Source of the DNA: Mycolicibacterium sp. HK-90
GTDB lineage: Bacteria; Actinomycetota; Actinomycetes; Mycobacteriales; Mycobacteriaceae
Direction: 5' to 3'
Length of the DNA stretch: 64,000 bases
Assembly (NCBI RefSeq): GCF_030486405.1
Contig: NZ_CP129613.1
Span: 2,356,001 to 2,420,000, forward strand
Numbering within the stretch: position 1 is the first letter of the stretch; every line of letters starts with the position of its first letter. Below, one piece after another: positions 36,148 through 55,399 of this stretch. A program made the position numbers and the translations under genes. Below the pieces are notes generated by a model. That model had not been told where the DNA came from and did no database searches. It worked only from the letters and a program-made list of their open reading frames with translations.

Positions 36148-36160
36148 GACACTGGACCGG
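36148..36160 (+). promoter_or_regulatory. Possible leaderless promoter of the HAD gene
   Basis: GACACT (36148-36153) is six bases before GTG 36160, which lacks a ribosome site. The box keeps A2 and T6 of the -10 consensus and resembles the GACAAT box of ftsY. Confidence 0.3.
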
Positions 36161-37898: not shown

Positions 37899-37915
37899 TC
37901 GCATAGAGTATCCAA
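37899..37915. promoter_or_regulatory. GntR operator site 1 (autoregulatory)
   Basis: TCGCATA-GAG-TATCCAA. The right arm is identical to the perfect palindrome at 39771-39787; the left arm matches 5 of 7. It lies 21 bp before the GntR start. Confidence 0.65.
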
Positions 37916-37936
37916 TATTAGCGAAAGCGAGACCTG

Positions 37937-38659
37937 ATGCCACCGCGAACAGCCACCCGGCGTACAGCCGCATCCGACTCCGCCGCTGGAGCGCGCTCGG
38001 ACTTCGTTCGGCCCAAGACGGCTCAGCAGGCGGTGGCCGAGGCGCTGCGTCGGGACATCACGAGTGGGAAGCTCGCGCCCGGCAGCTGGATCGTGCAGGA
38101 GACCCTGGCCGAGCAATTCGGCATGTCCCGTATTCCGATTCGTGAGGCGCTGAAAACGCTTGAGGCCGAGGAATACATCACCTACGTGCCGCACAGCGGC
38201 TATCGCGTCGCTCAACTGGGCCTCGACGAACTCGTCGAGGTGTTCCGGATCCGCGACATCCTTGAGGCTGAACTCATCCGCGATGCCATGCCGTCCGTCA
38301 CCGACGAACTCATCGACGCGATGCGTGAGCAGATGGCCGTGATGGATCGTGCGGCCGCCAGCGGTGACCTGATCGCAGTGGGTCTGGCCAATCGGCAGTT
38401 TCATTTCCTGACCTTCGAGGCCAGCCGAATGGCGCGCACCAAGCGCATCGTCACCCAGCTGTGGAACACCGCCGATGCCTATCGTCCGATGTATGCGCAT
38501 CTGATGGATCTGGACCAGGTCAACAGTGAGCATGTGCTACTGGTCGAGGCGATGGCCGCACGCGACATCGACCGGGTGGTCACCTTGAACCATCAGCACC
38601 GGATGCACGCCATCGATCATCTGCACACGGTGTTCGGCCATCCGGAATCCGACGAGTGA
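37937..38659 (+). CDS. GntR family regulator, FadR/FCD subfamily
   Basis: A 240-residue regulator: winged helix (KTAQQAVAEALRRDITSGKL, MSRIPIREALKTLEAEEYI, PHSGYRVAQLG) and an all-helical FCD ligand domain with metal-type His residues (ANRQFHFLTFEAS, LNHQHRMHAID). ATG 37937 has a weak upstream GAAAGCGAG. A 17-bp palindrome precedes it and three similar ones precede the LLM, ABC and amidohydrolase operons, so it is the likely local controller. FCD ligands are usually organic acids, which fits a catabolic locus. Confidence 0.93.
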   Translation: MPPRTATRRTAASDSAAGARSDFVRPKTAQQAVAEALRRDITSGKLAPGSWIVQETLAEQFGMSRIPIREALKTLEAEEYITYVPHSGYRVAQLGLDELVEVFRIRDILEAELIRDAMPSVTDELIDAMREQMAVMDRAAASGDLIAVGLANRQFHFLTFEASRMARTKRIVTQLWNTADAYRPMYAHLMDLDQVNSEHVLLVEAMAARDIDRVVTLNHQHRMHAIDHLHTVFGHPESDE

Positions 38660-39117
38660 CACCGCGGGAGCGCTTGGCTTCGTTGGGGATCGAGCTGCCG
38701 GTGCCCGCGAAGCCGAAAGGCGCCTATTTCCCGAGCCGTCGTTGTGGCAACCAATTGTGGATTTCGGGAACGACCGCGCGGCGCCCGGGTGATCCGGGCG
38801 CGGTGGGGGTGGTCGGCGATGATGTCACCATCGCGCAGGCGAAGGCTCAGGCCCGACTGGCGGCCCTCAACCTCGTGGCGGCGCTCGATGCCGCCTCCGG
38901 CCTGGATGCGGTCATCGCATTGGTTCATTTGCGCGGATATGTGCGCGCCACTTCCGATTTCGATGCCCACCCGGGCGTGATCGACGGAGCGTCGGAGCTG
39001 TTTCTCGAGGTGTTCGGCGAAGGGTGCGGCGCCCACGCCCGCACGGCGATCGGCGTCGCCTCGTTGCCCGGGGGAGCGTGCGTGGAACTCGAACTCGTTG
39101 CCACTGTGCGCGATTGA
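38656..39117 (+). CDS. RidA/YjgF/YER057c/UK114 family protein
   Basis: A 153-residue Rid-family protein (RutC/RidA-like): GAYFPSRRCGNQLWISGTTARR at the start, Arg in HARTAIGVASLPGGACVELELVATV at the place where RidA binds carboxylates. These enzymes hydrolyse reactive enamines/imines to ketoacids and ammonia. GTG 38656 overlaps the GntR stop as GTGA, so it is coupled to the regulator. In this locus it may process an enamine released when an N-heterocycle is opened (inference). Confidence 0.88.
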   Translation: MTPRERLASLGIELPVPAKPKGAYFPSRRCGNQLWISGTTARRPGDPGAVGVVGDDVTIAQAKAQARLAALNLVAALDAASGLDAVIALVHLRGYVRATSDFDAHPGVIDGASELFLEVFGEGCGAHARTAIGVASLPGGACVELELVATVRD

Positions 39118-39708
39118 TCAGGCCAACCGCGCAGCGGTACGTCCGATCGCCAGACCGAGTGCGATTCCCGCCAATGCGGTCAAGATGATTGCCTGCCAAT
39201 CGTTTTCATCGGCGTGATGTGAGGATGCCGGCCTCCGTCCGGCGGTAGCGGGCTCGGCCTCGTCGGCGCCCACGATCATCAGATTGAGCTTGCGGACGAA
39301 CTGTCCGATGATGCGGTTGCTCACCTGTGAGATGACGCCAGAGCCGAACTGGGCGATGCGCCCACCGAGTTCGAGGTCGGTACTCACGGTGACCTCGGTG
39401 CGCTCGCCCCGTTCGCAGGCCGACATGGTGACGGTGGCTTCGGCCGAGCCGTTGCCCTTGCGGTCGCGGGCTTGTCCGCGCACCACCATCTCATGGGAGC
39501 TGTCGTCGCGGCTGACCACGGTCGCAAGGCCCGAGAGTGTGAGTCCCACCGGTCCCACCTTGATGGCGACGTTGGCGCGGTAGTCGTCACCATCGTGGCC
39601 TTCGAGAGCGGCGCCGGGTATGCACTCGACCACCCGGGGTACGTCCGTCAGTGCCGCCCAGGCGATTTCGAGCGGGGCGTCGACCGAGAACTCATTGATC
39701 AGCTGCAT
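39118..39708 (-). CDS. CoxG-like SRPBCC protein with C-terminal membrane anchor
   Basis: A 196-residue CoxG/DUF1857-type protein: MQLINEFSVDAPLEIAWAALTDVPRVVECIPGAAL is the usual start, and the fold ends near residue 150 (IGQFVRKLNLMIVG). CoxG anchors or recruits CO dehydrogenase-type molybdenum hydroxylases to the membrane in Oligotropha. A C-terminal hydrophobic segment (TALAGIALGLAIG) fits a tail anchor. ATG 39708; longer codons to 39855 run into the operator. It is divergent from the LLM gene across palindrome 39771-39787 and convergent with the RidA gene, end to end. Confidence 0.88.
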   Translation of the reverse strand: MQLINEFSVDAPLEIAWAALTDVPRVVECIPGAALEGHDGDDYRANVAIKVGPVGLTLSGLATVVSRDDSSHEMVVRGQARDRKGNGSAEATVTMSACERGERTEVTVSTDLELGGRIAQFGSGVISQVSNRIIGQFVRKLNLMIVGADEAEPATAGRRPASSHHADENDWQAIILTALAGIALGLAIGRTAARLA

Positions 39709-39770
39709 GGTGGTGTTCCGTCTCCTCGATTGCGTCGTGCGGTTGTGCGTCCCGACAGTCCGCCCTACGA

Positions 39771-39787
39771 TTGGATACGATATCCAA
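39771..39787. promoter_or_regulatory. GntR operator site 2 (perfect palindrome)
   Basis: TTGGATA-CGA-TATCCAA, perfect 7+3+7 inverted repeat, between the divergent CoxG-like and LLM genes; 21 bp before the LLM start. Confidence 0.75.
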
Positions 39788-39808
39788 CATCGCCCCAGGA
39801 GGTCGATA

Positions 39809-40804
39809 GTGCTGAGTAAGGGAGTCGGTCTGTTTCCGACCGAACCGGTGGGCACGATGTGCGAATACGTGCGGTTGAGCGAATCGCTCGGCTACGACAA
39901 CGTGTGGTTCGGTGATTCGCAGAACATCTGGCGCGAGTCCTCGACCGTCATGGGCGCCGCGGCCGTGGGAACGGAGCGCATCGTGTTCGGGACGGGCGTC
40001 ACCAACGCGGTGACCCGCCATCAATCTCTGCTGGCCTCGACCTGGGCGACGCTTGCCGAGTTCACCGGTGGTCGGGTGGCGCTGGGGATCGGCACCGGTG
40101 ACTCGTCTTTGCGGACAATGGGTCTCACCCCACTCAAACTGGCTGAGCTCGAGGAGTCGATCCGCGGGCTTCGGACGTTGTTCAGAGGCGAGAAGGTGGT
40201 GGAGCCGACCAGCGGCGCCGAGTACCACCTGAACTACCTCACCGAACCGATGGACATTCCGATCTACATCGCCGCCTCCGCCCCGAAGATCCTCCGGATG
40301 TCGGGCCGGATCGCCGATGGCGTCATCGTGCTGGTCGGTACCGCGCCGCACTTCGTCGAGGCGGCGTTACGGACGATCGAAGCCGGCGCGGCCGAGAGCG
40401 GCCGTACCCTCGATGACATCCACATCGTGCTGTGGACACCTACGGCGATCGACGAGGATCGGATCAAGGCGCGAGATTTGGTGCGGGCCCATGTGTCACG
40501 CGTGGCGATCAGGCCGCTGCCGGCTCAGGTCGAACCCGCCCTGGAAAAAGCGATCGACCGGATCCGGGATTCGTACAACTACTACGAGCACATGAATCCG
40601 GAGGCCTCACACGCCGACCTCGTCCCCGACGAGCTGGTGGACCTCTTCGCGCTGGCCGGCACGCCCGATGAATGCGCGCAGCGTCTCAAGGAGATCGAAG
40701 CCCTTGGCGTCGATCAGGTTTCGATCGTTCCGTTCGTGCGCCCGGGTGAGAGCCGGGTACCCACCATCCGCACCTTCGCCGACATCGTCGGTGGTCATGG
40801 CTGA
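39809..40804 (+). CDS. LLM class F420-dependent oxidoreductase of the GntR locus
   Basis: A 331-residue luciferase-like enzyme close to methylenetetrahydromethanopterin reductase-type LLM proteins: GLFPTEPVGTMCEYVRLSESLGYDNVWFGDS, RIVFGTGVTNAVTRHQSLLASTWATLAEFTGGRVALGIGTGD, PIYIAASAPKILRMSGRIADGVI. The latter motif is typical of F420-users. Expected to reduce or oxygenate a substrate of the locus. GTG 39809 has AGGAGG six bases upstream (39797-39802). The stop overlaps the next small gene. Confidence 0.9.
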   Translation: MLSKGVGLFPTEPVGTMCEYVRLSESLGYDNVWFGDSQNIWRESSTVMGAAAVGTERIVFGTGVTNAVTRHQSLLASTWATLAEFTGGRVALGIGTGDSSLRTMGLTPLKLAELEESIRGLRTLFRGEKVVEPTSGAEYHLNYLTEPMDIPIYIAASAPKILRMSGRIADGVIVLVGTAPHFVEAALRTIEAGAAESGRTLDDIHIVLWTPTAIDEDRIKARDLVRAHVSRVAIRPLPAQVEPALEKAIDRIRDSYNYYEHMNPEASHADLVPDELVDLFALAGTPDECAQRLKEIEALGVDQVSIVPFVRPGESRVPTIRTFADIVGGHG

Positions 40805-41078
40805 CCACGGGCGCACTCCCGGTGAGTTTCCCGCGCCGGGAAGTGCGGTGCCGGGGGCGCCGCCACCGCTGAAACGGCCCCTCGTCGCGGCGGACGGCGT
40901 TCCGGCAGACGTGTACCCGGGCCGGGCGTTGGAACCTGTGGTGCCGGTGCCAGCCGCGGCAGTCGCGCCTCGGTCGCGATTCACGACCGCCGCCGCGCTG
41001 GCCGGAGTCGCGGTAGGGCTTGAACTGGCCAGGTTGTGGACGAGTGGCGGCGCTGCTCACATTGGTCCAAAATGTTGA
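40797..41078 (+). CDS. Small Pro-rich protein with one membrane segment
   Basis: A 93-residue product, no family recognised. ATG 40797 overlaps the end of the LLM gene by eight bases. The first 65 residues are rich in Pro, Gly and Ala (GEFPAPGSAVPGAPPPL); then one hydrophobic stretch (AALAGVAVGLELARLW) and a short tail. The hydrophobic stretch aligns with that of the nearby CoxG-like protein (TALAGIALGLAIGR): 8 of 14 positions identical. It may be a membrane-bound partner of the locus. Small size and low complexity keep confidence moderate. Confidence 0.55.
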   Translation: MADHGRTPGEFPAPGSAVPGAPPPLKRPLVAADGVPADVYPGRALEPVVPVPAAAVAPRSRFTTAAALAGVAVGLELARLWTSGGAAHIGPKC

Positions 41079-41094
41079 CCTAGATCACAGCAAT

Positions 41095-41111
41095 TCGTAT
41101 AGTGTATCCAA
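41095..41111. promoter_or_regulatory. GntR operator site 3 (ABC operon)
   Basis: TCGTATA-GTG-TATCCAA; right arm identical to site 2, left arm 5 of 7. It lies 29 bp before the substrate-binding protein start. Confidence 0.65.
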
Positions 41112-41140
41112 TATTCAGCCCACTTCGGAGGTTTGCGTCC

Positions 41141-42124
41141 ATGGCCTGGTTTCGTAAAGTGTGCGCCGCGGCGGGTACCGCGGTGGCGCTCGTCGCGGGG
41201 GCAACCGCCTGTGCCGATGAATCGGCAGGTCCGGGCGGAGGTGGCGCGGATACGCTGAGCATCTCGGCGACCGGCGTGGACAGCTTGCCGTTCATGGCGA
41301 TTTTGCAGGTCGGTATCGACAAGGGCTGGTTCACCGAAGCGGGCGTCAACGTCGATCTCTACTCCGGTGGTGGTGGCGGCAACACCCTGCGGGTGGTCAC
41401 CAGCGGTGACGCGGACATGGCGATCGCAGGAAACAGCTCGGTGATACTTGCGGCGCAGCAACCGAATTCGAACCTCAAGGTGGTCGCACCGTGGTTCCAG
41501 GTGAACGACTTCTCGTGGATCTCGCCCCCGGGCGGAAAATTGGAGAACGCCATCCTCGGGTTCAGTTCCGCGGGCTCGTCGACCGAACTGATCGTCAAGG
41601 GTCTCGAGCGCAAGCTCGGCGTCAAGTCGCAGGCGGTCGGACCGATGGGTGACAACTGGACCGCAGCCAAGGCCGGTCAGATCACCGCGGGTTGGGCCAT
41701 GCAGCCCTTCATCGCCGACAAGCAGGCCTCGGAACATGCTGAGGTGCTTGTCGATTCGCGGGACGTGGTGGGGGACCTGCCGGCCGACCTGGTGGCGGTG
41801 AACGCCGACTATGCCCAGCAGAATCCCGACAACGTGCGGGCCTTCTTCACCGTCGCCGATCGGCTGAACGAGTGGTTGGTCGCCAACCCCGACGAGGCGG
41901 CCGACGAGATCGCACCCTTGGTCGGGGTATCGCCCGAGGTGATGCGCGCAGCATTCGCGAGCAATCCGGACCTGGCCAAAGGCTTTTCGTTGAAGGTCGA
42001 CGTGGACGGTCTGAAGAACCTCTCCGAGTTGATGGTCGCCGCCGGCCAGATCCCGGAGCAGATCGACTGGGCCGCCACGCTCGATCAGCAGTACCTGCCG
42101 GACGACGCGCAGACCGACATCTGA
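41141..42124 (+). CDS. ABC transporter substrate-binding lipoprotein (NMT1/SsuA-like)
   Basis: A 327-residue binding protein of the NMT1/TauA/SsuA group: signal peptide with lipobox ATAC (Cys about 24), then [46 protein letters not shown], the standard opening of this family, which covers taurine, sulfonates, nitrate, pyrimidine precursors and aromatic acids. ATG 41141 follows CGGAGG. First gene of a four-protein importer and preceded by an operator of the GntR type. Confidence 0.92.
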
Positions 42125-42158
42125 GCTGACACCGTCAGCATCTCCGAAAGGCGTACCT

Positions 42159-42968
42159 ATGGATCGTGACGGTATCCGGATCGACGACGTCTCCGTGGTC
42201 TTCGATACACCGGCCGGCAAGGTGACCGCGGTAACCGACATCAAACAGCACGTCCCGCATTCCAGTTTCGTGTCCGTCGTCGGACCGAGCGGATGCGGCA
42301 AGTCGACCCTGCTGGCGGTGATCGCCGGATTGCAGAAGGCGTCGACCGGACTGGTGCGTGTGGCCGGACGGCCGGTCACCGGACCTGACCCGTCTATCGG
42401 TGTGGTGTTTCAGGAAGATTCGACTCTGCCGTGGCGCACGGTGGAAGAGAACGTGGCCTTCGCGATGGAGATGATCGGCACCGGCAAGACCGAACGGCGT
42501 CAGCGGGCCAAGGAGGCGATCGAACTCGTCGGGCTCGGCGGTTTCGAGAAGTCTTATCCGTCCATGCTTTCGGGCGGTATGCGCCAGCGCGTCGCGCTGG
42601 CCCGGACATTGGCGGTGCAGCCGGAGGTCGTGCTGATGGACGAGCCGTTCGCGGCACTCGACCAGCAGACCCGGCTGTTTCTCGGCGCCGAGGTTCGGCA
42701 GATCTGGGCCAGGACCAACCAGACCATCGTGTTCGTCACCCACGACATCTCCGAGGCGATCCTGCTCTCCCAACAGGTTTGGGTGATGTCCTATCGACCC
42801 GGATCGATCATCGATGTCGTCGACATCGACCTGCCCGACGAGCGCGACGCGAGTATGGTCTCCACCCCACGCTTCAACGAACTCCAGAATCGGATCTGGA
42901 CGTCACTGCAGGCCGAATCCATGCGCGGATTCAGACAGCAGGAGGCCCAGAAGAAGGTGGCGACGTGA
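42159..42968 (+). CDS. ABC transporter ATP-binding protein (SsuB/TauB-like)
   Basis: A 269-residue ATPase: Walker [11 protein letters not shown]-loop [14 protein letters not shown], signature LSGGMRQR, Walker [14 protein letters not shown] and switch His in [10 protein letters not shown]. It powers the importer encoded around it. ATG 42159 follows GAAAGG. Its stop overlaps the next start (GTGA). Confidence 0.95.
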
Positions 42969-43816
42969 CGACATCCTATGTCGCACAGAAGGACGTGACC
43001 ACGGAGAACAAGAATGCCGGTGCGGGCCGGCCTGAGCCGGAGCGCCGCAAGAGGCGATTGAGCAACTCGGCGGTCAGTGTGCTCTCGACGTTGGTGCTGA
43101 TCCTCGGCTTCTTGATCGTCGCCGAGCTGGGTGCCCGGACCGGGCTCTGGAGCGACCGTGTCCTTCCCGCCCCCACGGTGATCCTGTCCGAACTGGTACG
43201 CCTGCTCGGCGAAGGCCAGTTCTGGACTGACGCGGCCCGTACCGGGGTCGAGGTGGCCTTCTCGATCCTGTTCGGCAGCCTGTTGGGTTTCGCTGCCGGC
43301 CTGACCTTCTGGAAGCTGCCTGCGATCGGGCGCATCTTCGAGCCGTACCTGGTGTCGTTCTATGCAGTGCCGCTCGTGCTCTTCTATCCGGTGATGATCG
43401 TGATCGTGGGGATCAATGCCATGTCGGTGATCATCCTCGCGACCATCATGGCGGCCATCCCCATGGCGCTCAACACCGCGGTCGGGCTCAACACGATGCC
43501 GCCGGTGTACATGAAACTGGCCCGATCGTTGAAAGCCTCGCCGCGGCAGACCTTGTTCGCGATCGCGATCCCGGCGGCCGGTCCGTTCATCGTCGCCGGC
43601 TTGCGGCTCGCCGTGGTCTACGCACTGATCGGCACCATCGCGATGGAATTCACCACTGCGCAGGCCGGTCTGGGCTACCGGATCCGCTATCTCTACGAGA
43701 TCTTCAACAACAACGAGATGTTCGCCTACATCGCAGTTGTGCTGGTGCTGTCCTGCATTCTCACCGCGCTGCTGGCGACGGTGGAACGCGTACTGCTGCG
43801 TGGGAGGAACCGATGA
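42965..43816 (+). CDS. ABC transporter permease 1
   Basis: A 283-residue SsuC/TauC-type permease. A polar tail of about 40 residues precedes six hydrophobic segments; the EAA loop reads [38 protein letters not shown] 42965 overlaps the ATPase stop by four bases; longer codons upstream lie inside the ATPase gene. Works with the permease that follows, so this importer has two different membrane subunits, unlike the usual SsuC homodimer. Confidence 0.93.
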
Positions 43817-44613
43817 CCTCGACCTTGCAGTCACCTGCCGGCCACCCCCCGGCCGGTACGTCACGCACGACCTCGCAGCGGATCCGTTCGGTCCTGGGTA
43901 ACCAGGCCGTCGGTGCGACCCTGCTCGCACTGGTGGTGGCCATCGTCTGGGAGATCTTCTCCGATCTGACGTTCGTGGTTCCCTCACCGGTGCAGACGTT
44001 CCGGGTGCTGATCCGCAATCTTGCCGATCCCGCGTATCTGTTCGATCTACAGGTCACCGCGCAGTCGGTGTTGCTGGCTTTCGTGATCGGCACCGCGATC
44101 GGCGGCGTCCTCGGACTGCTGCTCGGTTTGTCGCAACGATTGCGACTGATCTTCGAGCCGATGCTGATCGTGCTGAACGGGATCCCGAAGATCGTGCTGT
44201 ACCCGGTTCTTCTGCCGATCTTCACCCTGTCCGGCTCCAAGATCGTCATGGGGGTGCTGTTCGCCCTGTTTCCGGTGTTGATCAACGTGACCACCGGTGT
44301 GCAGGAAATCCCGCGGGTGTACTGGAAACTGGCGCGCTCGGTGCGCGCCAATGCCTGGCAGACGCTCGTGCACATCATCATTCCCGCGATCCGGCGGCCG
44401 CTGCTGACCGGGATCCGGCTCGCGGTGAGCCTTGCGGTGGTCGGCGTGGTGCTCTCGGAGTTCTTCGCGACCAGGCGCGGTCTCGGCCGGGTGGTACTGC
44501 AGTCCTACAGTCACGGCGACTACCCGTCCATGGTCGCAACCATCATGCTGCTGATCACCATCTCGTTCGGAATCTCGATCGCACTGTGGCAGTGGGAGAA
44601 ACGACTCCATTGA
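43813..44613 (+). CDS. ABC transporter permease 2
   Basis: A 266-residue permease of the same family as the preceding gene: six hydrophobic segments, EAA loop YWKLARSVRANAWQTLVHIIIPAIRRPLLTGIRLA. ATG 43813 overlaps the previous stop (ATGA) and its own stop overlaps the start of the hydroxylase gene, so importer and hydroxylase are translated from one message. This co-expression suggests the importer brings in the hydroxylase substrate. Confidence 0.94.
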   Translation: MTSTLQSPAGHPPAGTSRTTSQRIRSVLGNQAVGATLLALVVAIVWEIFSDLTFVVPSPVQTFRVLIRNLADPAYLFDLQVTAQSVLLAFVIGTAIGGVLGLLLGLSQRLRLIFEPMLIVLNGIPKIVLYPVLLPIFTLSGSKIVMGVLFALFPVLINVTTGVQEIPRVYWKLARSVRANAWQTLVHIIIPAIRRPLLTGIRLAVSLAVVGVVLSEFFATRRGLGRVVLQSYSHGDYPSMVATIMLLITISFGISIALWQWEKRLH

Positions 44614-46943
44614 CAAGGAACGTATCGGCGCCGGGTCACATCGGCAGCTCGGTCCGGCGTCGCGAAGACGAGCGCCTGCTCGGCGGTCACGGTCAGTTCG
44701 TGGCCGACTGTGCGGCCGGTGCGCACCACGTCGTGTTCTTGCGCTCCACCGAGCCACATGCCCGCATCGCCCGACTCGACACCTCGGCTGCCGAGCGGAT
44801 GCCCGGCGTGATCGGGATCCACACCGCCGGGGACCTGGGATTGTGCGGGGTACCGATCCCGTCGCTGACCACCCCGGATCCGCTTTTCACCGCAGCCACG
44901 TCGTGCGTGCTGGCCGAGCAGCGGTTGTCCATACTGGCCCATGACCGCGTGCACTACGCCGGCCAGCCGATCGCCGTGGTGATCGCCGAGGACCGCTACC
45001 GCGCCGAGGATGCGCTGGAGGTCATCGAGATCGACTACGAGCCGCTTGCGGCGGTGACCGACCCGTTCCAAGCGCTCCACCCCGGGTGTCCGGTGCTGTT
45101 CGACCACCTCGACAGCAACGAGGCGGCGCGATTGCACTATTCGTTCGGCGATGTCGAGCGCGAGTTCGCCTCGGCGGCAACGGTGGTCAGCGGCACCTAT
45201 CGGATGAACCGGCACGGTGCGGTGCCGCTGGAGTGCCGGGGCGTGCTGGCGTGGTTCGACCCGCGGCAGCAGCGGGTCGAGGTGACCACGTCGACACAGG
45301 TCCCGCACATGGTGCGCAATGCCATCTGCGCGGTGACCGGCTGGTCTCGCCAGGATGTCAAGGTCACGGTGCCCGACGTCGGTGGCGGCTTCGGCACCAA
45401 GGCCAACGTGTACGGCGAGGAGATTCTGCTGGCACTGCTCGCCCGGCGCACCGGGCACCGCTTGATCTGGGTCGAGGATCGCCAGGAGCATCTGCTGGCC
45501 AGTGCACAGGGCCGGGATCAGGTTCACCACACCCGGCTTGCGGTCGACAACGACGGCCAGATCCTCGCCTGGGCCGATGATTTCGTCGTCGACATCGGAG
45601 CCGGAAGCCTGTGGGTGGCCGGCATCATCGCCAACACCGCGATCCATCTGCTCGGCCCGTATCGGATCCCCGCCGCGCAGATCTCCGGCCGCGCGGCGCT
45701 GACCAACAAGACGTTGGTCGCCCAGTACCGCGGTGCCGGTAGGCCCGAGGCGACGTTCGCCCTGGAGCGCAGTCTCGACGCCGCGGCTCGCGAAATCGGA
45801 ATGAGTACCGACGAGATCCGCCGGCGAAACCTGCTCACCCAGGCTGACATGCCTTATCCGCGGCCGATTCCGTACCGCGACGGTGTCCCGATCCATTACG
45901 ACGGGCGCGACTACCGAGCGTGCCTGGAATCGGTTCTGGACGCGCTGCCCCGGGACGAAGCGGCCCGCTGTGCGGCCGAATACCCGCAGTACCACATCGG
46001 TTACGGCTTGTCGTCGTACCTGGAGGCCACCGGACGTGGCCCGCACGAGACCGCACGGATACGGCTGCTGCCCAACGGCCGATTCGAGGTCACTGCCGGA
46101 GCGGCATCGGCCGGTCAGGGGCATGAAACCGTGTTCGCACAAGTGGCAGCCGAGGCATTGGGCGTGCCGTTCGAGCAGGTCCGCTACGTGCCGGGAGATA
46201 CCGAGCGGCTGTCCGACGGGGTGGGAACCTTCGCCAGCCGCTCGGCGATACTCGCCGGCTCGGCAGTGCACAAGGCCGCCGGCCAGCTGGTCGAGTTGGC
46301 CGCCGCGCGGGTGCACGCCCTGACGAACGCCGACCGTGACGACGTCCAGTACGCCGAGGGCCGGTTTCACATCGCCAGGGACCACTCGATCGGCTGGGCC
46401 GAGCTCGCCCGCGCGGCCACGGTGGGCGGAGAGCAGGAGAGTGGCGGCGCGCTCGATGTCACTGCGGTGCACCGTGTTACGACGGTGACGTGGACGATGG
46501 GGGTTCACGCGGTGATCGTGGGCGTCCATCGGCGCACCGGAATCGTGAAGGTCCTGCGCTATGCGGTGTCGCACGAGGGCGGCCGGGAGATCAACCCGAG
46601 AATCGTCGAAGGGCAGATCATCGGCGGTGTCGCCCAGGGCGTCGGCGGCGCGCTTTTCGAGCAGTGGAAGTATTCGGAATCCGGTCAGCCGCAATCGACC
46701 ACGTTTGCCGCCTACCACCTGCCGCTGACCACCGACATGCCGATCGTTCGGGTGCGACATCTGCATGTCGACACCCCGGCGAATCCGATCGGGGTTCGCG
46801 GGGCAGGGGAGAGCGGCACAATCGCCGTGTATGCGGCGCTCGCCGGGGCCGTCGACGATGCACTCGGCGGTCACCTCCACATCGACAGCACCCCGATCTC
46901 GCCGGGGCGACTGTGCCGAGTGCTCGACCGGGCGGCATCGTGA
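44610..46943 (+). CDS. Molybdenum hydroxylase large subunit, CoxL form II / xanthine dehydrogenase family
   Basis: A 777-residue Mo-cofactor subunit: SSVRRREDERLLGGHGQFVAD, EPHARIARLD, YAGQPIAVVIAEDRYRAEDALEVIEIDYE, VPDVGGGFGTKANVYGEE. The active-site loop is Q372-YRGAGR378, the form II signature; true CO dehydrogenases have AYXCSFR. Thus it should hydroxylate an organic (often N-heterocyclic) substrate. Late catalytic Glu in VRGAGESGTIA (about 733). Start set at TTG 44610, which overlaps the permease stop (TTGA) and follows GGGAG; GTG 44586 in frame is an alternative adding eight residues. Confidence 0.92.
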   Translation: MTRNVSAPGHIGSSVRRREDERLLGGHGQFVADCAAGAHHVVFLRSTEPHARIARLDTSAAERMPGVIGIHTAGDLGLCGVPIPSLTTPDPLFTAATSCVLAEQRLSILAHDRVHYAGQPIAVVIAEDRYRAEDALEVIEIDYEPLAAVTDPFQALHPGCPVLFDHLDSNEAARLHYSFGDVEREFASAATVVSGTYRMNRHGAVPLECRGVLAWFDPRQQRVEVTTSTQVPHMVRNAICAVTGWSRQDVKVTVPDVGGGFGTKANVYGEEILLALLARRTGHRLIWVEDRQEHLLASAQGRDQVHHTRLAVDNDGQILAWADDFVVDIGAGSLWVAGIIANTAIHLLGPYRIPAAQISGRAALTNKTLVAQYRGAGRPEATFALERSLDAAAREIGMSTDEIRRRNLLTQADMPYPRPIPYRDGVPIHYDGRDYRACLESVLDALPRDEAARCAAEYPQYHIGYGLSSYLEATGRGPHETARIRLLPNGRFEVTAGAASAGQGHETVFAQVAAEALGVPFEQVRYVPGDTERLSDGVGTFASRSAILAGSAVHKAAGQLVELAAARVHALTNADRDDVQYAEGRFHIARDHSIGWAELARAATVGGEQESGGALDVTAVHRVTTVTWTMGVHAVIVGVHRRTGIVKVLRYAVSHEGGREINPRIVEGQIIGGVAQGVGGALFEQWKYSESGQPQSTTFAAYHLPLTTDMPIVRVRHLHVDTPANPIGVRGAGESGTIAVYAALAGAVDDALGGHLHIDSTPISPGRLCRVLDRAAS

Positions 46944-47821
46944 AACCCGGCTCATTCCACTACCTCCGCCCCGATTCGGTCGGTGAGGCTCTCGAGCAGC
47001 TGGCGCGTCATCCCGACGCCAAGCTGATGGCGGGCGGTCAGTCCTTGATGGCGTTGATGAACCTGCGGCTGGCCCGGCCGAGTGTGATCATCGACATCGG
47101 CAGTCTGGTCGAACTCAAGCGCGTCTTCGACGACACCGACGATCTGATCCTCGGTGCGTTGGTCACCCATCGCACGGTCGAGGTCGACCCGTTGATCGCC
47201 GCGCGCACACCGTTGCTCGCCGCTGCTGCCGGCCATATCGGACACATCGGTATCCGCAACCGTGGGACCCTCGGAGGATCGGTGGCGCATGCCGACCCGG
47301 CAGCTGAGATGCCTTTGGCCACTGTGGTCCTCGGCGCTACATTTCACACCGAATCGGCGGGCGGTGGCCGTCGACAGGTTGCCGCCGAGGACATGTTCGT
47401 ATCGTTCTACACCAGTGCCCTGGCACCCGACGAGATGATCACCTGGGTGTCGATTCCCGCCATCCGGCGCGGTCAGGGCTGGGGTTTCGTGGAATACGCT
47501 CAGCAGCACGGTGATTACGGGCTGGCCGGCGCCGGTTGCCTGCTGGGCGTCGGCGGCGATGGCCGGATCGAATCGTTGCGCGCCGGGGTGCTGAGCGCGG
47601 CGGACCGGCCGTTGCTGTTCAAGGGCGACGACGCGATAGGTGCGCGCCCGTCGACACGACTGTGGCGGGCACTGGCGCACCGGTGGGCCGCCGCGGCCGA
47701 ACCGACTTCTGATGATCCGGACTACTCCCGGCAGTTGTGCGCCGCGGCGTTGGCGCAATCGCTCACCGAAGCCCACCGGCGTATCGAGAAGGGGCAGGAG
47801 GCCGTCCATGGTGTCAACTGA
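46940..47821 (+). CDS. Molybdenum hydroxylase FAD-binding medium subunit (CoxM type)
   Basis: A 293-residue FAD subunit passing electrons from the iron-sulfur protein to the final acceptor. FAD motifs: A31-GGQSLMALMNLRL and the second RNRGT110-LGGSVAHADPAAE, fitting CoxM/CutM proteins. GTG 46940 overlaps the large-subunit stop as GTGA. Gene order large-medium-small differs from the M-S-L order of true cox operons, again arguing against a CO dehydrogenase. Confidence 0.93.
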   Translation: MKPGSFHYLRPDSVGEALEQLARHPDAKLMAGGQSLMALMNLRLARPSVIIDIGSLVELKRVFDDTDDLILGALVTHRTVEVDPLIAARTPLLAAAAGHIGHIGIRNRGTLGGSVAHADPAAEMPLATVVLGATFHTESAGGGRRQVAAEDMFVSFYTSALAPDEMITWVSIPAIRRGQGWGFVEYAQQHGDYGLAGAGCLLGVGGDGRIESLRAGVLSAADRPLLFKGDDAIGARPSTRLWRALAHRWAAAAEPTSDDPDYSRQLCAAALAQSLTEAHRRIEKGQEAVHGVN

Positions 47822-48329
47822 GAGGCCGGCAATCGATACATCGAAACCTCCGGTGGGAGTGCCGATATCAGCCGTGGTCAACGGCAGGCTGATAGAGCGC
47901 ACGGTGGTACCCCGGCTGACGCTGGCCGATTTTCTGCGTGACGAACTGGGCCTGACCGGTACGCACCTTGGCTGCGAACACGGGGTGTGCGGTGCATGTT
48001 CGGTGTTCCTCGACGGTCAGAGTGTGCGTACCTGCCTTGTGCTGGCGGTGCAGATCGACGGCATGCGGGTCACAACCGTCGAAGGCCTCGAGGAGTTCGA
48101 GGAGACCAGAAGGCTGCGCGAGGCGTTCTCCGAGCGAGGCGGCCTGCAGTGCGGGTTCTGTACCCCGGGATTCCTTGTCACTGCCGTGGAGCTACTGCGA
48201 GATCCGAACACCGAGAAGCCACTGACCGAGGACTCGGTACGAGAGGCATTGTCGGGCAACATCTGTCGCTGCACCGGATACCAGGGCATCGTGCAGGCAG
48301 TGCTGGACGCCGCCGACAACTCCGGGTGA
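47808..48329 (+). CDS. Molybdenum hydroxylase [2Fe-2S] small subunit (CoxS type)
   Basis: A 173-residue protein with two 2Fe-2S clusters: plant-type Cys56, 61, 64, 76 (GCEHGVCGACSVFLDG...RTC) and the second set Cys115, 118, 153, 155 (QCGFCTPGF, NICRCTGY). ATG 47808 lies inside the end of the medium subunit gene by 14 bases, with AGGAGG seven bases upstream. It joins the Mo and FAD subunits into a hydroxylase heterotrimer. Confidence 0.95.
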   Translation: MVSTERPAIDTSKPPVGVPISAVVNGRLIERTVVPRLTLADFLRDELGLTGTHLGCEHGVCGACSVFLDGQSVRTCLVLAVQIDGMRVTTVEGLEEFEETRRLREAFSERGGLQCGFCTPGFLVTAVELLRDPNTEKPLTEDSVREALSGNICRCTGYQGIVQAVLDAADNSG

Positions 48330-49357
48330 TCGTGGTCCGGCCGCGATCTGACGGCAGCGCCATGGGCGGCGGCCGGATCCGCACTCCGGAACTCTTGCGT
48401 CCCGTCGGCAGCAGCCGATGGGGGATGGCGGCCGCACTGGCGGTAGCGCTGGGGGCTGTCCTGACGGGCACCGCGTTATTCGGCCGCGCCGAGTGGGGAT
48501 CGGCGGTGGGTCTGGGTTTCGTGCTGATCGCCGTTCCCGAGATACCCACCACGTGGCGGTCGGCGCTCCACACCATGGGCATAAGGGCCGCGACCGTGGT
48601 GGTGGGTGGAGTGCTCGTGGTGGCGGGTGCGCACAACGCCATCGTGCTGGCGGGGTTCACCGTGCTGGCGGCGATCACGGGCGCGCTGATCCCCGGCGTC
48701 GGCGCGACGGCCGGCCTGGCGGTGGTGCTGATGTCGATCGATCTGGATCAGGACGCCACGAGTATGGCGGCGCTGTGGCCGTACCTCGTCGGCATCGCCA
48801 TCGTGTTCGCGAGCTGGGTGGTGTGGTTCGCGATATCTCGTCTGCGCCATCGGATCGAGGAGGAGCCGCTCCCGCCGAGCTCCGCGGCCGGTGTGGCGCA
48901 CGCCGCGCGAGTTGGGGTCGCGGTGGGACTTGCGGTGTCGGTGGCGGCCCTGCTGCCGGCGGACATGGTCGGCGGTCATTGGTTGGTCACCAGCGTGCTG
49001 TTGACGATCCAGCCGAGCCAGGCCGAGACGGGTTTGCGGTTGGCTCAGCGGCTTTCGGGTAATGCCGTCGGAGCAGTGATCGCCGCGGCACTACTTGGTA
49101 CACATCCATCGGCACCGGTGGTGATCGGGCTGACGGTGGTGCTTTTCCTGATGGCGATGGCGCTGAGGCCGGTCAACTACACCTGGTGGGCGATCGCCGG
49201 ACCGCCGGTTCTGCTCGTGATCAGCGAGTACCCGGATCTGTTCCCGTGGTACGAAGGCGCGGTGCGACTTGCGATGAACTTCGTGGGTGCGCTCATCGTG
49301 GCGCTGATGGTGTTCGTCGTGCCCTCGATCATGCCGACGTGGTTGCGGCAGCGGTGA
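48326..49357 (+). CDS. FUSC family membrane protein (aromatic acid exporter-like)
   Basis: A 343-residue protein with about ten hydrophobic segments in two similar halves (GMAAALAVALGAVLTGTALFG...; RVGVAVGLAVSVAALLPADMVGGHWLVTSVLLTIQPSQAETGLRLAQRLSGNAVGAV). The second half carries the FUSC hallmark. Relatives export aromatic acids or are of unknown role; here it may relieve intermediates of the pathway. GTG 48326 overlaps the small-subunit stop (GTGA); ATG 48362 is an alternative. Last gene of the ABC-hydroxylase operon. Confidence 0.82.
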   Translation: MIVVRPRSDGSAMGGGRIRTPELLRPVGSSRWGMAAALAVALGAVLTGTALFGRAEWGSAVGLGFVLIAVPEIPTTWRSALHTMGIRAATVVVGGVLVVAGAHNAIVLAGFTVLAAITGALIPGVGATAGLAVVLMSIDLDQDATSMAALWPYLVGIAIVFASWVVWFAISRLRHRIEEEPLPPSSAAGVAHAARVGVAVGLAVSVAALLPADMVGGHWLVTSVLLTIQPSQAETGLRLAQRLSGNAVGAVIAAALLGTHPSAPVVIGLTVVLFLMAMALRPVNYTWWAIAGPPVLLVISEYPDLFPWYEGAVRLAMNFVGALIVALMVFVVPSIMPTWLRQR

Positions 49358-49438
49358 ATTCCCGCTCGGCCTCGACGGCGGCGGTGGCTGCTGGGGTCCC
49401 CGGCAGGTTCGGTACGGCGCTATGCCGATCCAGCATTA

Positions 49439-49455
49439 TCGGATAGTGTATACAA
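49439..49455. promoter_or_regulatory. GntR operator site 4 (amidohydrolase operon)
   Basis: TCGGATA-GTG-TATACAA; each arm matches the perfect palindrome at 6 of 7 positions. It lies 21 bp before the amidohydrolase start. Confidence 0.6.
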
Positions 49456-49476
49456 AATCCAACGCTGGGAGGATTT

Positions 49477-50694
49477 GTGACCACACTGCTCGTGGAGGAC
49501 ATCGGGCTGCTCGTGTCCGGTGATGCGACGGCGGCCGTGCGTGACACCACGTTGCTGATCGAGGACGGACGCATCGCGGGCATCGGCGTCGACCATCCGG
49601 CCCCCGACAACGTGTTGTCGGCCGGCGGGTTGACCGTCATGCCCGGCCTCGTCGACGGCCACGTGCATCCGACGTTCGGCGAATGGACACCGGCACAGAA
49701 CTCGATCGGCTGGATCGGCAACTACCTCCAGGGCGGCACCACCTCGATGGTGTCAGCCGGCGAATTGCACATCCCGGGCCTGGATTTCGGAGCGCTGACG
49801 CCGGAACTCGTCCTGAGCATCGCGATCACGTCCAAACACACCACCGGGCGGGCCCGCCCGTCGGGCGTCAAGGTGAACGCGGGCACCGTGCTGCTCGTGC
49901 CGGGCATGACCGAGGAGCACTTCGACCGCGCCCACCGCGAAGGTATCGACCACCTCAAGTTCATCTTCTACGACTGGAACCGGCTGGGGGACGGCGAGGC
50001 GCAGCAATACGTCGAATGGGCCCACGACCGTGGCATGACCGTCAAGATGCACTCGGGTGGAGTGTCGCGGTCCGGATCGAGCCGGGTGGCCGGGCGGGAC
50101 GTGGTTGCCGCAGTGCGTCCGGACATCGTCGGCCACATCTCGGGCGGTCCGATCCCACCCCCTGACGAGGACATCATGGCGATCATCGCGGATGTGCCCT
50201 CGGCCCACGTCGAGGTGTGCAGCTCGATGAACTACCGCGCCACCAAACTGGTTGTCGACCAGCTGTCCGCACGTGGCGAACTCGGGCGGCTCACCCTCGG
50301 CACAGACACCCCCGGCGGCACCGGGGTGATCCCCCGGGGAATGCTGCGCAACATCTGCTTCCTGGCCTCGATCTGCGGAGTCGATCCGCTCGACGCCGTG
50401 GCAGCGGCCACCGGCCAGACCGCCCGCGCGCACGGCCTCGACACCGGGGTCCTCGCCGAAGGGCGGCCGGCGGACCTGCTGGTCCTCGGGCCGGTCACCG
50501 GGTCGACTGCGGACGACGCGCTGGAGTGTTTTGCCCTCGGTGACCTGCCGGGGATCGCGACCGTGCTGGTCGACGGGATCCCCCTGGTCAGGACGCGCAG
50601 TGAACAAACCCCACCTCCGAGCCGCGCGGTGAGGTGGCGCGGCGAACCCGTACCGGCCGCGCATTCCACGGCGCACCGCATCGGATGCTGCTGA
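49477..50694 (+). CDS. Enamidase-like amidohydrolase
   Basis: A 405-residue amidohydrolase-superfamily protein that resembles enamidase, the enzyme opening the tetrahydro-oxopyridine ring in nicotinate fermentation. Metal residues: H62-V-H64 (PGLVDGHVHP), Lys161 (DHLKFIFYDW, candidate carboxylated bridge), His192 (VKMHSGG), His220 (IVGHISGG) and Asp277 (LGTDTPGG). A C-terminal beta-sandwich closes (GRPADLLVLGPVTGS). GTG 49477 follows GGGAGGA. It starts a unit with the acyl-CoA dehydrogenase 26 bp on and is under operator site 4. Substrate inferred, not proven. Confidence 0.87.
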   Translation: MTTLLVEDIGLLVSGDATAAVRDTTLLIEDGRIAGIGVDHPAPDNVLSAGGLTVMPGLVDGHVHPTFGEWTPAQNSIGWIGNYLQGGTTSMVSAGELHIPGLDFGALTPELVLSIAITSKHTTGRARPSGVKVNAGTVLLVPGMTEEHFDRAHREGIDHLKFIFYDWNRLGDGEAQQYVEWAHDRGMTVKMHSGGVSRSGSSRVAGRDVVAAVRPDIVGHISGGPIPPPDEDIMAIIADVPSAHVEVCSSMNYRATKLVVDQLSARGELGRLTLGTDTPGGTGVIPRGMLRNICFLASICGVDPLDAVAAATGQTARAHGLDTGVLAEGRPADLLVLGPVTGSTADDALECFALGDLPGIATVLVDGIPLVRTRSEQTPPPSRAVRWRGEPVPAAHSTAHRIGCC

Positions 50695-50720: not shown

Positions 50721-51920
50721 ATGGTTGAAGCTGCTGTGGCCCAAAGAAATTCCGAAGCCGTCGACGCCGACGCGATGTTCGGCGTCGATCCGCTGCTGAC
50801 TGCCGAAGAACGCGAGATCCGCGACACCGTGCGATCGGTCGTTCGACGGAGAATCAGCCCATACATCGCTGATTGGTACGAGAGCGGTGAACTACCCGCC
50901 CGGGAGTTGGCCGTCGAGCTCGGAGAACTCGGCTTGCTCGGCATGCATCTGCAGGGCTACGGGTGCGCGGGCACCACCGCGGTGGCCTATGGATTGGCCT
51001 GCCTTGAGCTCGAAGCGGGAGATTCCGGCATTCGTTCACTGGTCAGTGTGCAGGGATCGCTGGCGATGTTCGCCATTCACGCGTTCGGCACTGACGAGCA
51101 GAAAGACCGTTGGCTACCGGAGATGGCCGCCGGTCGCAGCATCGGCTGCTTCGGCCTGACCGAACCCGACCACGGGTCCAACCCGGCCGGGATGAGAACG
51201 CGGGCCACCCGGTCCGGTGGTGACTGGGTGTTGACCGGCACCAAGATGTGGATCACCAACGGGTCGGTCGCCGACGTCGCGGTCGTCTGGGCCCGCACCG
51301 ACGAAGGGGTCCGCGGCTTTGTCGTGCCCACGGATACACCGGGATTCACCGCCAACACGATCAAATCGAAGATGTCACTGCGGGCGTCGGTGACCAGCGA
51401 GCTGATCCTCGACGGCGTCCGCCTGCCTGACAGCGCGCGCCTGCCCGGAGGCACGAGCCTCGGCGCCCCGCTGCGCTGCCTGAACGAAGCCCGGTTCGGC
51501 ATCGTCTTCGGTGCACTCGGCGCGGCACGGGATTGCCTGCAGACCGCGCTGGACCATGCACGGTCGCGAGAACAGTTCGGCCGGCCGATCGGCGGCTTCC
51601 AGCTCACCCAGCAGAAGCTCGCCGACATGACGCTGGAATACGGCAAGGGGCTGCTGCTGGCACTGCACCTCGGCCGGCGCAAGGATGCCGGCAATCTGGC
51701 GCCGGATCAGGTCAGCCTCGGCAAACTCAACAACGTTCGCGAAGCCCTCGACATCGCCCGTACGGCCCGCACCATCCTGGGCGCCAGCGGGATCAGCGCC
51801 GAATATCCGGTGATGCGGCACGCCAACAACCTGGAATCGGTGTTGACCTACGAAGGCACCAGCGAGATGCATAGTCTGATCATCGGGCAGGCTCTCACCG
51901 GAATCGCCGCGTTCCGCTGA
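50721..51920 (+). CDS. Acyl-CoA dehydrogenase (glutaryl-CoA dehydrogenase-like)
   Basis: A 399-residue flavoprotein. Signatures CFGLTEPDHGSNPAGMRTRA, KMWITNGSVADVAVVWAR, REQFGRPIGGFQLTQQKLADM and the catalytic Glu378 in LTYEGTSEMHSLIIGQALTG. The C-terminal layout is that of glutaryl-CoA dehydrogenases, which oxidise and often decarboxylate dicarboxylic acyl-CoA; ring opening of a pyridine derivative would give a glutarate-like acid, so the match is suggestive. CAGGAG precedes ATG 50721; 26 bp after the amidohydrolase. Confidence 0.9.
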   Translation: MVEAAVAQRNSEAVDADAMFGVDPLLTAEEREIRDTVRSVVRRRISPYIADWYESGELPARELAVELGELGLLGMHLQGYGCAGTTAVAYGLACLELEAGDSGIRSLVSVQGSLAMFAIHAFGTDEQKDRWLPEMAAGRSIGCFGLTEPDHGSNPAGMRTRATRSGGDWVLTGTKMWITNGSVADVAVVWARTDEGVRGFVVPTDTPGFTANTIKSKMSLRASVTSELILDGVRLPDSARLPGGTSLGAPLRCLNEARFGIVFGALGAARDCLQTALDHARSREQFGRPIGGFQLTQQKLADMTLEYGKGLLLALHLGRRKDAGNLAPDQVSLGKLNNVREALDIARTARTILGASGISAEYPVMRHANNLESVLTYEGTSEMHSLIIGQALTGIAAFR

Positions 51921-54132: not shown

Positions 54133-54160
54133 GCGAACGCCACGCTGAGCACCCGCTTGA

Positions 54161-54173
54161 TAGCTTGACCAGA
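54161..54173 (+). promoter_or_regulatory. Putative leaderless promoter of the CaiB gene
   Basis: TAGCTT (54161-54166) fits TANNNT and ends six bases before ATG 54173; no ribosome site precedes that ATG. It implies the CaiB-TesB pair has its own transcript. Confidence 0.45.
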
Positions 54174-55399
54174 TGGCAGCACCTGTGACGCCGGACCCGA
54201 CCCGCCCCTTGGCCGGCGTTCGGATCATCGAGATCTCCAGTTTCGTCGCCGTACCGCTGGCCGGTATGACCCTGACCCAGCTGGGCGCCGAGGTGGTGCG
54301 CGTCGACCCCGTCGGCGGTGCCGCCGACTACCACCGGTGGCCGCTCACCGACGGTGGCGACAGCATCTACTGGGCCGGCCTGAACAAGGGCAAACGTTCG
54401 GTGGCCGCCGACATGCGGTCTCCCGAAGGTCAGCAGCTGGTGCAGCGGCTGATCGCCGAGTCCGGCGTCTTGATCACGAATGTGGCGGGGCGGCAGTGGC
54501 ATTCGTACGACGTGCTGTCCGAGTTGCGGTCGGATCTGATTCATGTCGAGGTGTCGGGCCGGGCCGACGGCGGCACCGGGGTCGATTACACGGTCAACGC
54601 CGGGCTGGGCTTCCCGTTGGTCACCGGGCCGGCGCAGTTGGCCACCCCGGTCAACCACGTGCTGCCGGCGTGGGATGTGAGCTGTGGGCTGTACGTGGCG
54701 CTGGCGGTCAGTGCCGCACTGCGCCATCGCGATTCCACCGGTGAGGGCGCGCGGATCAGCATTCCGTTGGAGAACGTCGCGCTCGCCACCGCGGGCAATC
54801 TCGGGTTCCTCACCGAGGTGATGATCAACGGCACCGGCCGCGAACGGCTCGGCAACACCCTCTACGGCACGTACGGCCAGAACTTCACCAGCAGCGACGG
54901 CGTCGGATTCATGCTCGTCGCGCTGACCGGCCGGCACTTCCGTGACCTAACCGAGGTCACCGGAACCACCAAAGCCGTTGCCGCCCTTGCCGAGGCGTTC
55001 GGTGCCGACTTCACCGACGAGGGTCAGCGCTACACCCACCGCGACGCCCTGACCGGACTGTTCACCCTGTGGTTCAGCGAGCACACCGCCGACGAGATCA
55101 GTACTGCGCTGTCGGGAACGTCGGTGCTGTGGGAGCGCTATCGCAGCTTCGCCGAGGTGGCCGTCAACGACCGGGTGGTCGCCAACCCGCTGTTCACCCC
55201 GCTGGACCAACCCCGCATCGGCACCTACCTGGCGCCGGGCCTGCCGGTGTCGATCGGCGGCGTGTATCCGCCTGCCGTGGCAGCCCCCGCCCTCGGCGAC
55301 GACACCGGCGCGGTCCTGGCCGAACACCTCGGGCTGGGCAGCGACGAGATCGCGGCGCTGACCGAATCCGGCACCGTCGCAACGGGTACCGCGCAGTGA
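54173..55399 (+). CDS. CaiB/BaiF family CoA-transferase (2-methylfumaryl-CoA isomerase-like)
   Basis: A 408-residue type III CoA-transferase. Opening RIIEISSFVAVPLAGMTLTQLGAEVVRVDP and the run ADYHRWPLTDGGDSIYWAGLNKGKRSV resemble the intramolecular mesaconyl-CoA transferase (Mct) of the 3-hydroxypropionate cycle, as I remember it. Candidate catalytic Asp168 in LPAWDVSCGLY. It moves CoA between or within carboxylic acids. Its stop overlaps the thioesterase start. Whether it belongs to the GntR locus functionally is inferred from adjacency only. Confidence 0.88.
   Translation: MAAPVTPDPTRPLAGVRIIEISSFVAVPLAGMTLTQLGAEVVRVDPVGGAADYHRWPLTDGGDSIYWAGLNKGKRSVAADMRSPEGQQLVQRLIAESGVLITNVAGRQWHSYDVLSELRSDLIHVEVSGRADGGTGVDYTVNAGLGFPLVTGPAQLATPVNHVLPAWDVSCGLYVALAVSAALRHRDSTGEGARISIPLENVALATAGNLGFLTEVMINGTGRERLGNTLYGTYGQNFTSSDGVGFMLVALTGRHFRDLTEVTGTTKAVAALAEAFGADFTDEGQRYTHRDALTGLFTLWFSEHTADEISTALSGTSVLWERYRSFAEVAVNDRVVANPLFTPLDQPRIGTYLAPGLPVSIGGVYPPAVAAPALGDDTGAVLAEHLGLGSDEIAALTESGTVATGTAQ

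Follow-up and report, generated by a model that had tools for sequence, protein, structure and literature searches.

A 64,000-nucleotide stretch of Mycolicibacterium sp. HK-90 (contig NZ_CP129613.1, positions 2,356,001 to 2,420,000 of the forward strand; here called the window, whose own numbering is used) carries four copies of a 17-bp element with two-fold symmetry, each in front of a transcription unit of a gene cluster that includes a GntR regulator with an FCD domain. Putative operator 1 (TCGCATAGAGTATCCAA; 37899..37915, + strand) precedes gntR-ridA, operator 2 (TTGGATACGATATCCAA; 39771..39787, no strand assigned) lies between the divergent coxG and LLM genes, operator 3 (TCGTATAGTGTATCCAA; 41095..41111, + strand) precedes the importer-coxLMS operon, and operator 4 (TCGGATAGTGTATACAA; 49439..49455, + strand) precedes an amidohydrolase gene. 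The coordinates and reading of these sites hold as the original prediction gave them: the site at 39771 is a perfect palindrome, the right arm TATCCAA is common to three sites with TATACAA in the fourth, and the gaps to the starts of gntR (ATG, 37937), LLM (GTG, 39809), the substrate-binding protein gene (SBP; ATG, 41141) and the amidohydrolase gene (GTG, 49477) are 21, 21, 29 and 21 bp, respectively.

The gntR gene (37937..38659, + strand) encodes 240 amino acids that match PF00392 and PF07729 above cut-off (58.6 and 82.3 bits, respectively), and the product has the N-terminal GntR winged helix-turn-helix (HTH) and C-terminal FCD domain of the FadR subfamily, as had been proposed for the gene at this site. 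It is overlapped by 4 bp by a RidA/YjgF-family gene (38656..39117, +; PF14588/PF01042; PDB 3d01, E 4e-24). The CoxG-like SRPBCC protein (39118..39708, - strand; PF06240) has a hydrophobic C-terminal stretch. The LLM-class oxidoreductase (39809..40804, +; PF00296; PDB 1z69, E 9e-43) has as its nearest solved relatives the F420-dependent methylene-tetrahydromethanopterin reductases (Mer), and the end of its gene is overlapped by a small open reading frame of 93 aa (40797..41078, +), which has no Pfam match and is found in part of the relatives only. The third unit, also on the + strand, encodes an SBP of NMT1/SsuA type (41141..42124), an ABC ATPase (42159..42968) and two ABC permeases (42965-43816, 43813-44613), all assigned by Pfam/NCBIfam, a CoxL/M/S-type molybdenum hydroxylase (44610-46943, 46940-47821, 47811-48329; NCBIfam and solved structures), and a FUSC/aromatic-acid-exporter-like membrane protein (48326..49357; Pfam/NCBIfam). 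The last unit has an enamidase-like amidohydrolase (49477..50694, +; PDB 2vun enamidase, E 7e-81) and a glutaryl-CoA dehydrogenase (50721..51920, +; PDB 3sf6, E 1e-232). Overlaps and close spacing define four transcription units on the + strand, with coxG divergent, and the regulon would comprise about 15 genes: gntR and ridA; coxG; LLM and the small frame; SBP, ATPase, both permeases, coxLMS and FUSC; amidohydrolase and glutaryl-CoA dehydrogenase. Of the 14-16 genes proposed earlier, about 15 are thus supported, while the E1-type dehydrogenase, class III CoA-transferase and thioesterase genes that follow (51970..56202, +) belong to an older neighbourhood and could be reached by read-through only.

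The element is confined to these four places. With up to two mismatches, the pattern TYGNATANNNTATMCAA has 10 matches in the window, at the four sites and one overlapping place (49446), against 0.24 expected and a maximum of 3 in 100 shuffles. The whole genome (6.49 Mb, one contig) contains exact TNGNATANNNTATMCAA at the four sites only (5 matches, one site being palindromic; reversed control 0), and TNGNATANNNTATCCAA with up to one mismatch at the same four. A random genome-wide frequency, set beforehand as the outcome speaking against a regulon, was therefore not seen, and a genome-wide regulon was likewise rejected. Two mismatches add 24 places outside the window (25 matches; 12 for the reversed control), and all 20 of those examined lie inside open frames of at least 150 codons. 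Long open frames are common in a GC-rich genome.

The motif is found together with the regulator. Among 396 genomes of the genus, 40 encode a GntR ortholog (E up to 1e-40) and 47 contain the exact motif; the motif is present in all 40 genomes with the ortholog and in 7 of the 356 without it (Fisher p 5e-48, with no phylogeny correction, related genomes not being independent). At most seven candidates were scored per genome in this search, and absence calls are imperfect; the 40/7 split, the control matches and the positions upstream of gntR were counted by eye from result tables. In 38/40, gntR has an exact site just before it; the two others (G455, G460) have their only exact site some 11 kb off. 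The seven motif-only genomes have one match each, which is about background, because the reversed control pattern had 6 matches across all 396. In one of the seven, G568 (58% complete), the match is identical to the SBP-site sequence; three that were examined (G060, G026, G110) have no GntR relative (1e-4) within the surrounding 19 kb, where G060 has a distant acyl-CoA dehydrogenase only. A draw of 118 genomes gave the motif in 10/10 genomes with GntR and in 3/108 without.

The locus is found in M. houstonense, M. porcinum, M. peregrinum, M. wolinskyi, M. brisbanense, M. hippocampi, M. vanbaalenii, M. vaccae and others, and in two Sciscionella. Sciscionella belongs to another family than the mycobacteria. 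These relatives mostly keep the gene order and the same site variants promoter by promoter. The commonest base has a mean share of 0.98, 0.95, 0.91 and 0.94 inside the gntR, LLM, SBP and amidohydrolase sites (n = 24, 25, 22 and 10), and of 0.50-0.71 in the upstream and 0.56-0.75 in the downstream flanks; since the best site served as the anchor, the site columns are favoured. The gntR promoter aligned by MAFFT with no anchor has the same pattern of a conserved site in variable flanks, as judged from part of the alignment. The means exclude orthologs whose best site scored no more than 6 (2/26 gntR, 0/25 LLM, 3/25 SBP and 1/11 amidohydrolase); the two gntR rows so excluded (L087, L088) have a start placed too far upstream and contain the exact site, and three SBP rows that were kept (L069, L072, L084) are anchored on a shifted, non-equivalent match. 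Loci L062, L066 and L068, on the same contigs as L079, L085 and L081, were left out of the MAFFT alignment, the means, the amidohydrolase alignment and the TTGAC counts given below; L077 and L078 were left out of the means and TTGAC counts, and L089-L092 out of these and the MAFFT alignment, with L089-L091 also out of the amidohydrolase alignment.

In the 20-kb Sciscionella loci the highest scores again fall upstream of gntR and in the coxG-LLM interval, where two sites overlap, and this agreement speaks for the regulon. Other relatives are uneven, which weighs against it. Both Sciscionella places exceed the best of five shuffles (10.8) in L078, but in L077 only the gntR site does (18.9 vs 17.8) and the weaker one does not, and the weaker sites of L088 do not either. 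G056, G084 and L076 retain an intact gntR site, with a weak coxG/LLM site and no match for the SBP site; G056 and G084 also have a weak amidohydrolase site. Among the SBP sites, those of L069, L072 and G070 (L084) are shifted or broken and that of G077 is degenerate. Where no FUSC match is present and the amidohydrolase gene directly follows coxS (G077 and Sciscionella), operator 4 was not found. The site thus follows the promoter rather than the gene, and its loss in G077 speaks for the regulon. In the neighbourhood of a further glutaryl-CoA dehydrogenase-like gene there is a 43% GntR paralog (L092, G084:C1:2805103); no motif match in the 19 kb of this locus scores above 7.

One local regulon tied to the FCD-type GntR is strongly supported by these results, and binding of GntR to the four operators is predicted with high confidence. 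The sites precede the regulator and its neighbouring units and are inherited together with it, as in other local, self-contained regulons. The claim of a single regulator thus stands on uniqueness and co-occurrence; the near-constant distance, also put forward for it, speaks for promoter layout and not for the identity of the regulator. A promoter or sigma-factor element, or a site of a regulator coded elsewhere with gntR as a passenger, would account for the distance, for a TANNNT sequence inside the element (TA-N3-T being the actinobacterial -10 pattern) and for the lack of the usual GT-N3-AC core. A sigma element would, however, be expected more widely than in four places of one genome, and the element is palindromic, precedes gntR itself and is present with this GntR in 40/40 genomes, while no other regulator is coded among the scanned island genes; this alternative is improbable. 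Chance or coding-sequence artefacts were rejected with near certainty, being contradicted by uniqueness in window and genome and refuted by co-occurrence and ortholog conservation.

Each operator contains -10 candidates: TAGAGT (37904-37909) in operator 1, TACGAT (39776) in operator 2, where TANNNT is found on both strands, TATAGT (41098) or TAGTGT (41100) in operator 3, and TAGTGT (49444) in operator 4. Independent support comes from a promoter-like TTGACC-N17-TATAGT (41075..41103, +) before SBP, with its -10 inside operator 3 (1 match vs 1.8 expected by chance in the region). TTGAC occurs 20-21 bp upstream of 17/18 SBP sites and 7/26 gntR sites, where chance gives about 0.7% per site. The gap between site and gntR start is 21 bp in 20 and 22 bp in 6 of the 28 genomes, out of 40, whose match starts at residue 1. 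The constant distance is most simply explained by a shared promoter layout with the operator over -10/+1; transcription would start at the site or directly behind it, leaving the 21-bp gap as a short leader with a ribosome site. Two points count against this layout: TANNNT is built into ATA-N3-TAT and is not independent proof of a -10, and TTGAC at the -35 spot is found in 0/27 LLM pattern matches (some palindromes counted on both strands) and 0/8 amidohydrolase sites. Two further elements were observed in these promoters. A conserved TGTTGACCTAGATCACA upstream of operator 3 (41073-41089) ends in TCACA, which resembles a CRP-type half-site overlapping the -35 and could add catabolite control; and a conserved GGTTGTG (39741-39747) with TACGAT (39766-39771), overlapping the first base of the palindrome, suggests a second, overlapping LLM promoter.

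Operators of the FadR subfamily are described in part of the literature as TKGT/ACMA boxes, usually 3 nt apart, and extra boxes beside GntR-family sites have also been described there (PMC4494728). The present sites have the form TNGN-ATANNNTAT-NCNA and lack the TKGT-N3-ACMA core reported for most regulators of the subfamily, a point against assigning them to this GntR. NanR and BioR are known exceptions to these boxes, which are a usual and not a defining trait. A third half-site-like stretch directly follows three of the four sites (TATTAGC, 37916-37922; TATTCAG, 41112-41118; AATCCAA, 49456-49462) and is conserved in SBP and amidohydrolase orthologs.

GntR is proposed to bind the four promoter regions, its own included, as a putative autorepressor. 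With the operator over the -10 and the bases before the predicted transcription start, it would most likely block RNA polymerase. Release would come from an effector bound in the FCD domain, probably one of the pathway's carboxylate intermediates, so that the ~15 genes are turned on together. The FCD domain keeps the N-R-x-F-H, E-H and H-R positions in six orthologs aligned, a pattern compatible with a metal-bound carboxylate effector. Repression is the likely mechanism on the sequence evidence, an operator over -10/+1 being typical of it. GntR might act as an activator or mixed regulator at some of the promoters, several binding modes being allowed by the third half-site downstream and by the asymmetry of sites 1, 3 and 4; as all four sites overlie the predicted -10/+1, this is given a low probability.

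Comparison of relatives bears on the history of the locus. The E1 gene occurs in 28/118 genomes, and 20 of its 31 matches were examined. Seven of these loci adjoin the cluster, all with glutaryl-CoA dehydrogenase next to E1; none of 12 loci from cluster-free genomes has it, and a HAD or arginase-like gene directly precedes E1 in 9/12. The twentieth locus (G070, with the cluster on another contig) has an arginase-like gene next to E1. From these differences in the neighbours of E1, the segment that starts with gntR and ends with glutaryl-CoA dehydrogenase appears to have been inserted between the arginase-like gene and E1 in the lineage of the window. The HAD phosphatase and arginase-like genes (36160-37838) and the E1/CoA-transferase genes (51970-56202) can be seen as an older neighbourhood interrupted by the island. 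E1, CoA-transferase and thioesterase were rejected as core pathway genes, E1 and CoA-transferase occurring without the island. The island is, judged from gene contexts, transferable and has a different location in other species; beside gntR, the flanking sequence of L069-L078, L083, L084, L087 and L088 shows no HAD match. A plasmid origin was rejected: PLSDB plasmids gave no match to the enamidase at 1e-60, and one GntR relative (45%), in a Nonomuraea record. An enamidase ortholog (1e-100) was found in 1/216 genomes of the class, the window's own, with 8-9 candidates scored per genome and some possibly missed; at the same number of candidates, GntR orthologs (1e-60) were found in 3/298 genomes of the order, all in the genus. 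Further downstream (56884-64000, minus strand), long reading frames give the impression of a Mce-type operon.

The amidohydrolase keeps H67, H69 and D276 of 2vun, which we take to be metal ligands, as HVH and the Asp of D-P-GTG. Glu164, presumably the bridging glutamate of enamidase, is not kept (GEVG aligns with KFIF), a point against the pathway proposed below, and a Lys stands beside its column in all 13 sequences aligned; the protein is for this reason called enamidase-like, not enamidase. Orthologs are found in the 10/118 genomes with GntR, and otherwise as one 38% match only. A second enamidase-like amidohydrolase in the same genome (L106, C1:511695-512891) has 38% identity over nearly the full length and an in-frame TGA. 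The amidohydrolase gene of G087 (L104/L107) was matched as two overlapping pieces, one with TGA; in G084 the amidohydrolase gene is directly followed by an additional LLM-family gene (Bac_luciferase; L088:17067-18074), and in G056 (L101) a weak LLM match lies beside it.

The genes fit a pathway in which a substrate is imported, its ring is hydroxylated and reduced, and a cyclic enamide is opened by hydrolysis, with glutaryl-CoA as the end point. The ABC importer would take up the substrate, the CoxLMS molybdenum enzyme would hydroxylate the ring, with electrons probably passing to the membrane via CoxG, the Mer-like LLM enzyme would reduce the ring with F420H2, the enamidase-like amidohydrolase would open it hydrolytically, RidA possibly clearing an enamine or imine, and glutaryl-CoA dehydrogenase would end the pathway. 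F420 use by the LLM enzyme is predicted from its nearest relatives, which are F420 enzymes, and from an F420 synthesis gene of the host (F420_cofG, TIGR03550, 489 bits vs cut-off 213). The nearest solved relatives of CoxL are 6-hydroxypseudooxynicotine dehydrogenase (7dqx) and then quinoline 2-oxidoreductase; CO dehydrogenase was rejected, NF040766 (607.6 of 950 bits) and TIGR02416 (384.9 of 991) both falling below cut-off. A plausible prediction, which we place a little below an even chance, is that a pyridinecarboxylate (nicotinate or picolinate) is broken down reductively, its ring being reduced by F420H2. The full proposal of an aerobic F420H2-dependent route with hydroxylation, F420 reduction, enamidase-type opening and a glutaryl-CoA end, coded on a self-regulated mycobacterial island under an FCD-GntR with a non-canonical operator, is more tentative still. 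Among the 10 GntR genomes of the 118, glutaryl-CoA dehydrogenase adjoins the amidohydrolase in 7 of the 9 that can be judged, window included (the contig of G070 ends), and the genome of the window has two more glutaryl-CoA dehydrogenase genes. The pathway reading is graded lower because glutaryl-CoA dehydrogenase does not stand beside the cluster in G056 and G084 (in G056 there is no match at 1e-150) and no RidA match was found in the Sciscionella loci.

Nicotinate as the substrate would be converted via 6-hydroxynicotinate, 1,4,5,6-tetrahydro-6-oxonicotinate, 2-formylglutarate and glutarate to glutaryl-CoA, as in Azorhizobium, whose nicotinate route has this glutarate/glutaryl-CoA end. The enamidase homology, the nicotine-type Mo hydroxylase nearest to CoxL and the seven genomes with adjoining glutaryl-CoA dehydrogenase argue for it, and nicotinate suits the known enamidase better than picolinate does; a decarboxylase or semialdehyde dehydrogenase is lacking among the island genes, RidA has no obvious role, and the two genomes that lack glutaryl-CoA dehydrogenase beside the cluster count against it too. 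Taken by itself, nicotinate is rather unlikely. The E. barkeri/Azorhizobium route via 1,4,5,6-tetrahydro-6-oxonicotinate, with enamidase in E. barkeri, is described in part of PMC9304392.

Picolinate would give 6-hydroxypicolinate, its tetrahydro-6-oxo form, 2-iminoadipate (cleared by RidA), 2-oxoadipate, glutaryl-CoA and crotonyl-CoA. Natural roles for RidA, which it explains better than nicotinate, and for glutaryl-CoA dehydrogenase speak for this substrate, as does the E1-type 2-oxoacid dehydrogenase gene adjoining the island. That E1 gene is, however, an older neighbour that occurs without the island, the RidA match is absent from the Sciscionella loci, and no reductive picolinate route was found among the open-licence papers listed for it. 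Picolinate, about as probable as nicotinate, is doubtful too. None of the open-licence papers listed in the literature searches deals with the regulon or with an F420-dependent pathway for pyridinecarboxylates.

What began as a motif spotted by eye is now a testable regulon of one regulator, four sites and ~15 genes, with the regulator in 40/396 mycobacterial genomes, and would offer a clean case of an FCD-GntR reading an operator without the usual GT-N3-AC core. If the pathway is true, F420 gains a defined catabolic role in these mycobacteria, the reduction of the pyridine ring in a compound akin to vitamin B3 or to picolinate, a product of tryptophan, and the LLM enzyme becomes a candidate for the ring-reducing step of an aerobic reductive pathway.

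FadR-subfamily (FCD) GntR regulators such as PdhR, LldR, GlcC and NanR have the same HTH and FCD domains, a site before their own gene and a palindromic operator, and share with the present system a small local catabolic regulon and an extra half-site beside the operator, as part of PMC4494728 reports for the family; the operator here, T-N-G-N-ATA-N3-TAT-N-C-N-A without the TKGT-N3-ACMA core, and the content of the regulon differ from those given there. Carbon monoxide dehydrogenase clusters have the same LMS subunits and CoxG, whereas the present CoxL is nearest to 6-hydroxypseudooxynicotine and quinoline hydroxylases and below the CO-dehydrogenase cut-offs. Reductive nicotinate catabolism of Eubacterium barkeri and Azorhizobium caulinodans has the same type of Mo hydroxylase and an enamidase homolog (E 7e-81), and the Azorhizobium route shares the glutaryl-CoA dehydrogenase end with the island. 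The ring reductase of E. barkeri is ferredoxin-dependent, whereas that of the island would be an F420-type LLM enzyme; no ferredoxin-type 6-hydroxynicotinate reductase is found among the annotated genes of the island, the rest of the genome not having been searched for one. The E. barkeri enamidase also differs in the column of the bridging Glu, next to which the island protein has Lys, and the substrate assigned to the island is putative. F420H2-dependent LLM-type enzymes move hydride to the aromatic ring of picrate, and the consulted part of the source mentions no pyridinecarboxylate counterpart (PMC8498797). According to the same part, the picrate reductases of the LLHT family (Rhodococcus/Nocardia/Nocardioides) serve an actinobacterial catabolic pathway by the LLM/LLHT ring-hydride transfer that is proposed here; their substrate is nitroaromatic, whereas a pyridine is proposed for the island, whose LLM enzyme has its nearest solved structures in Mer.

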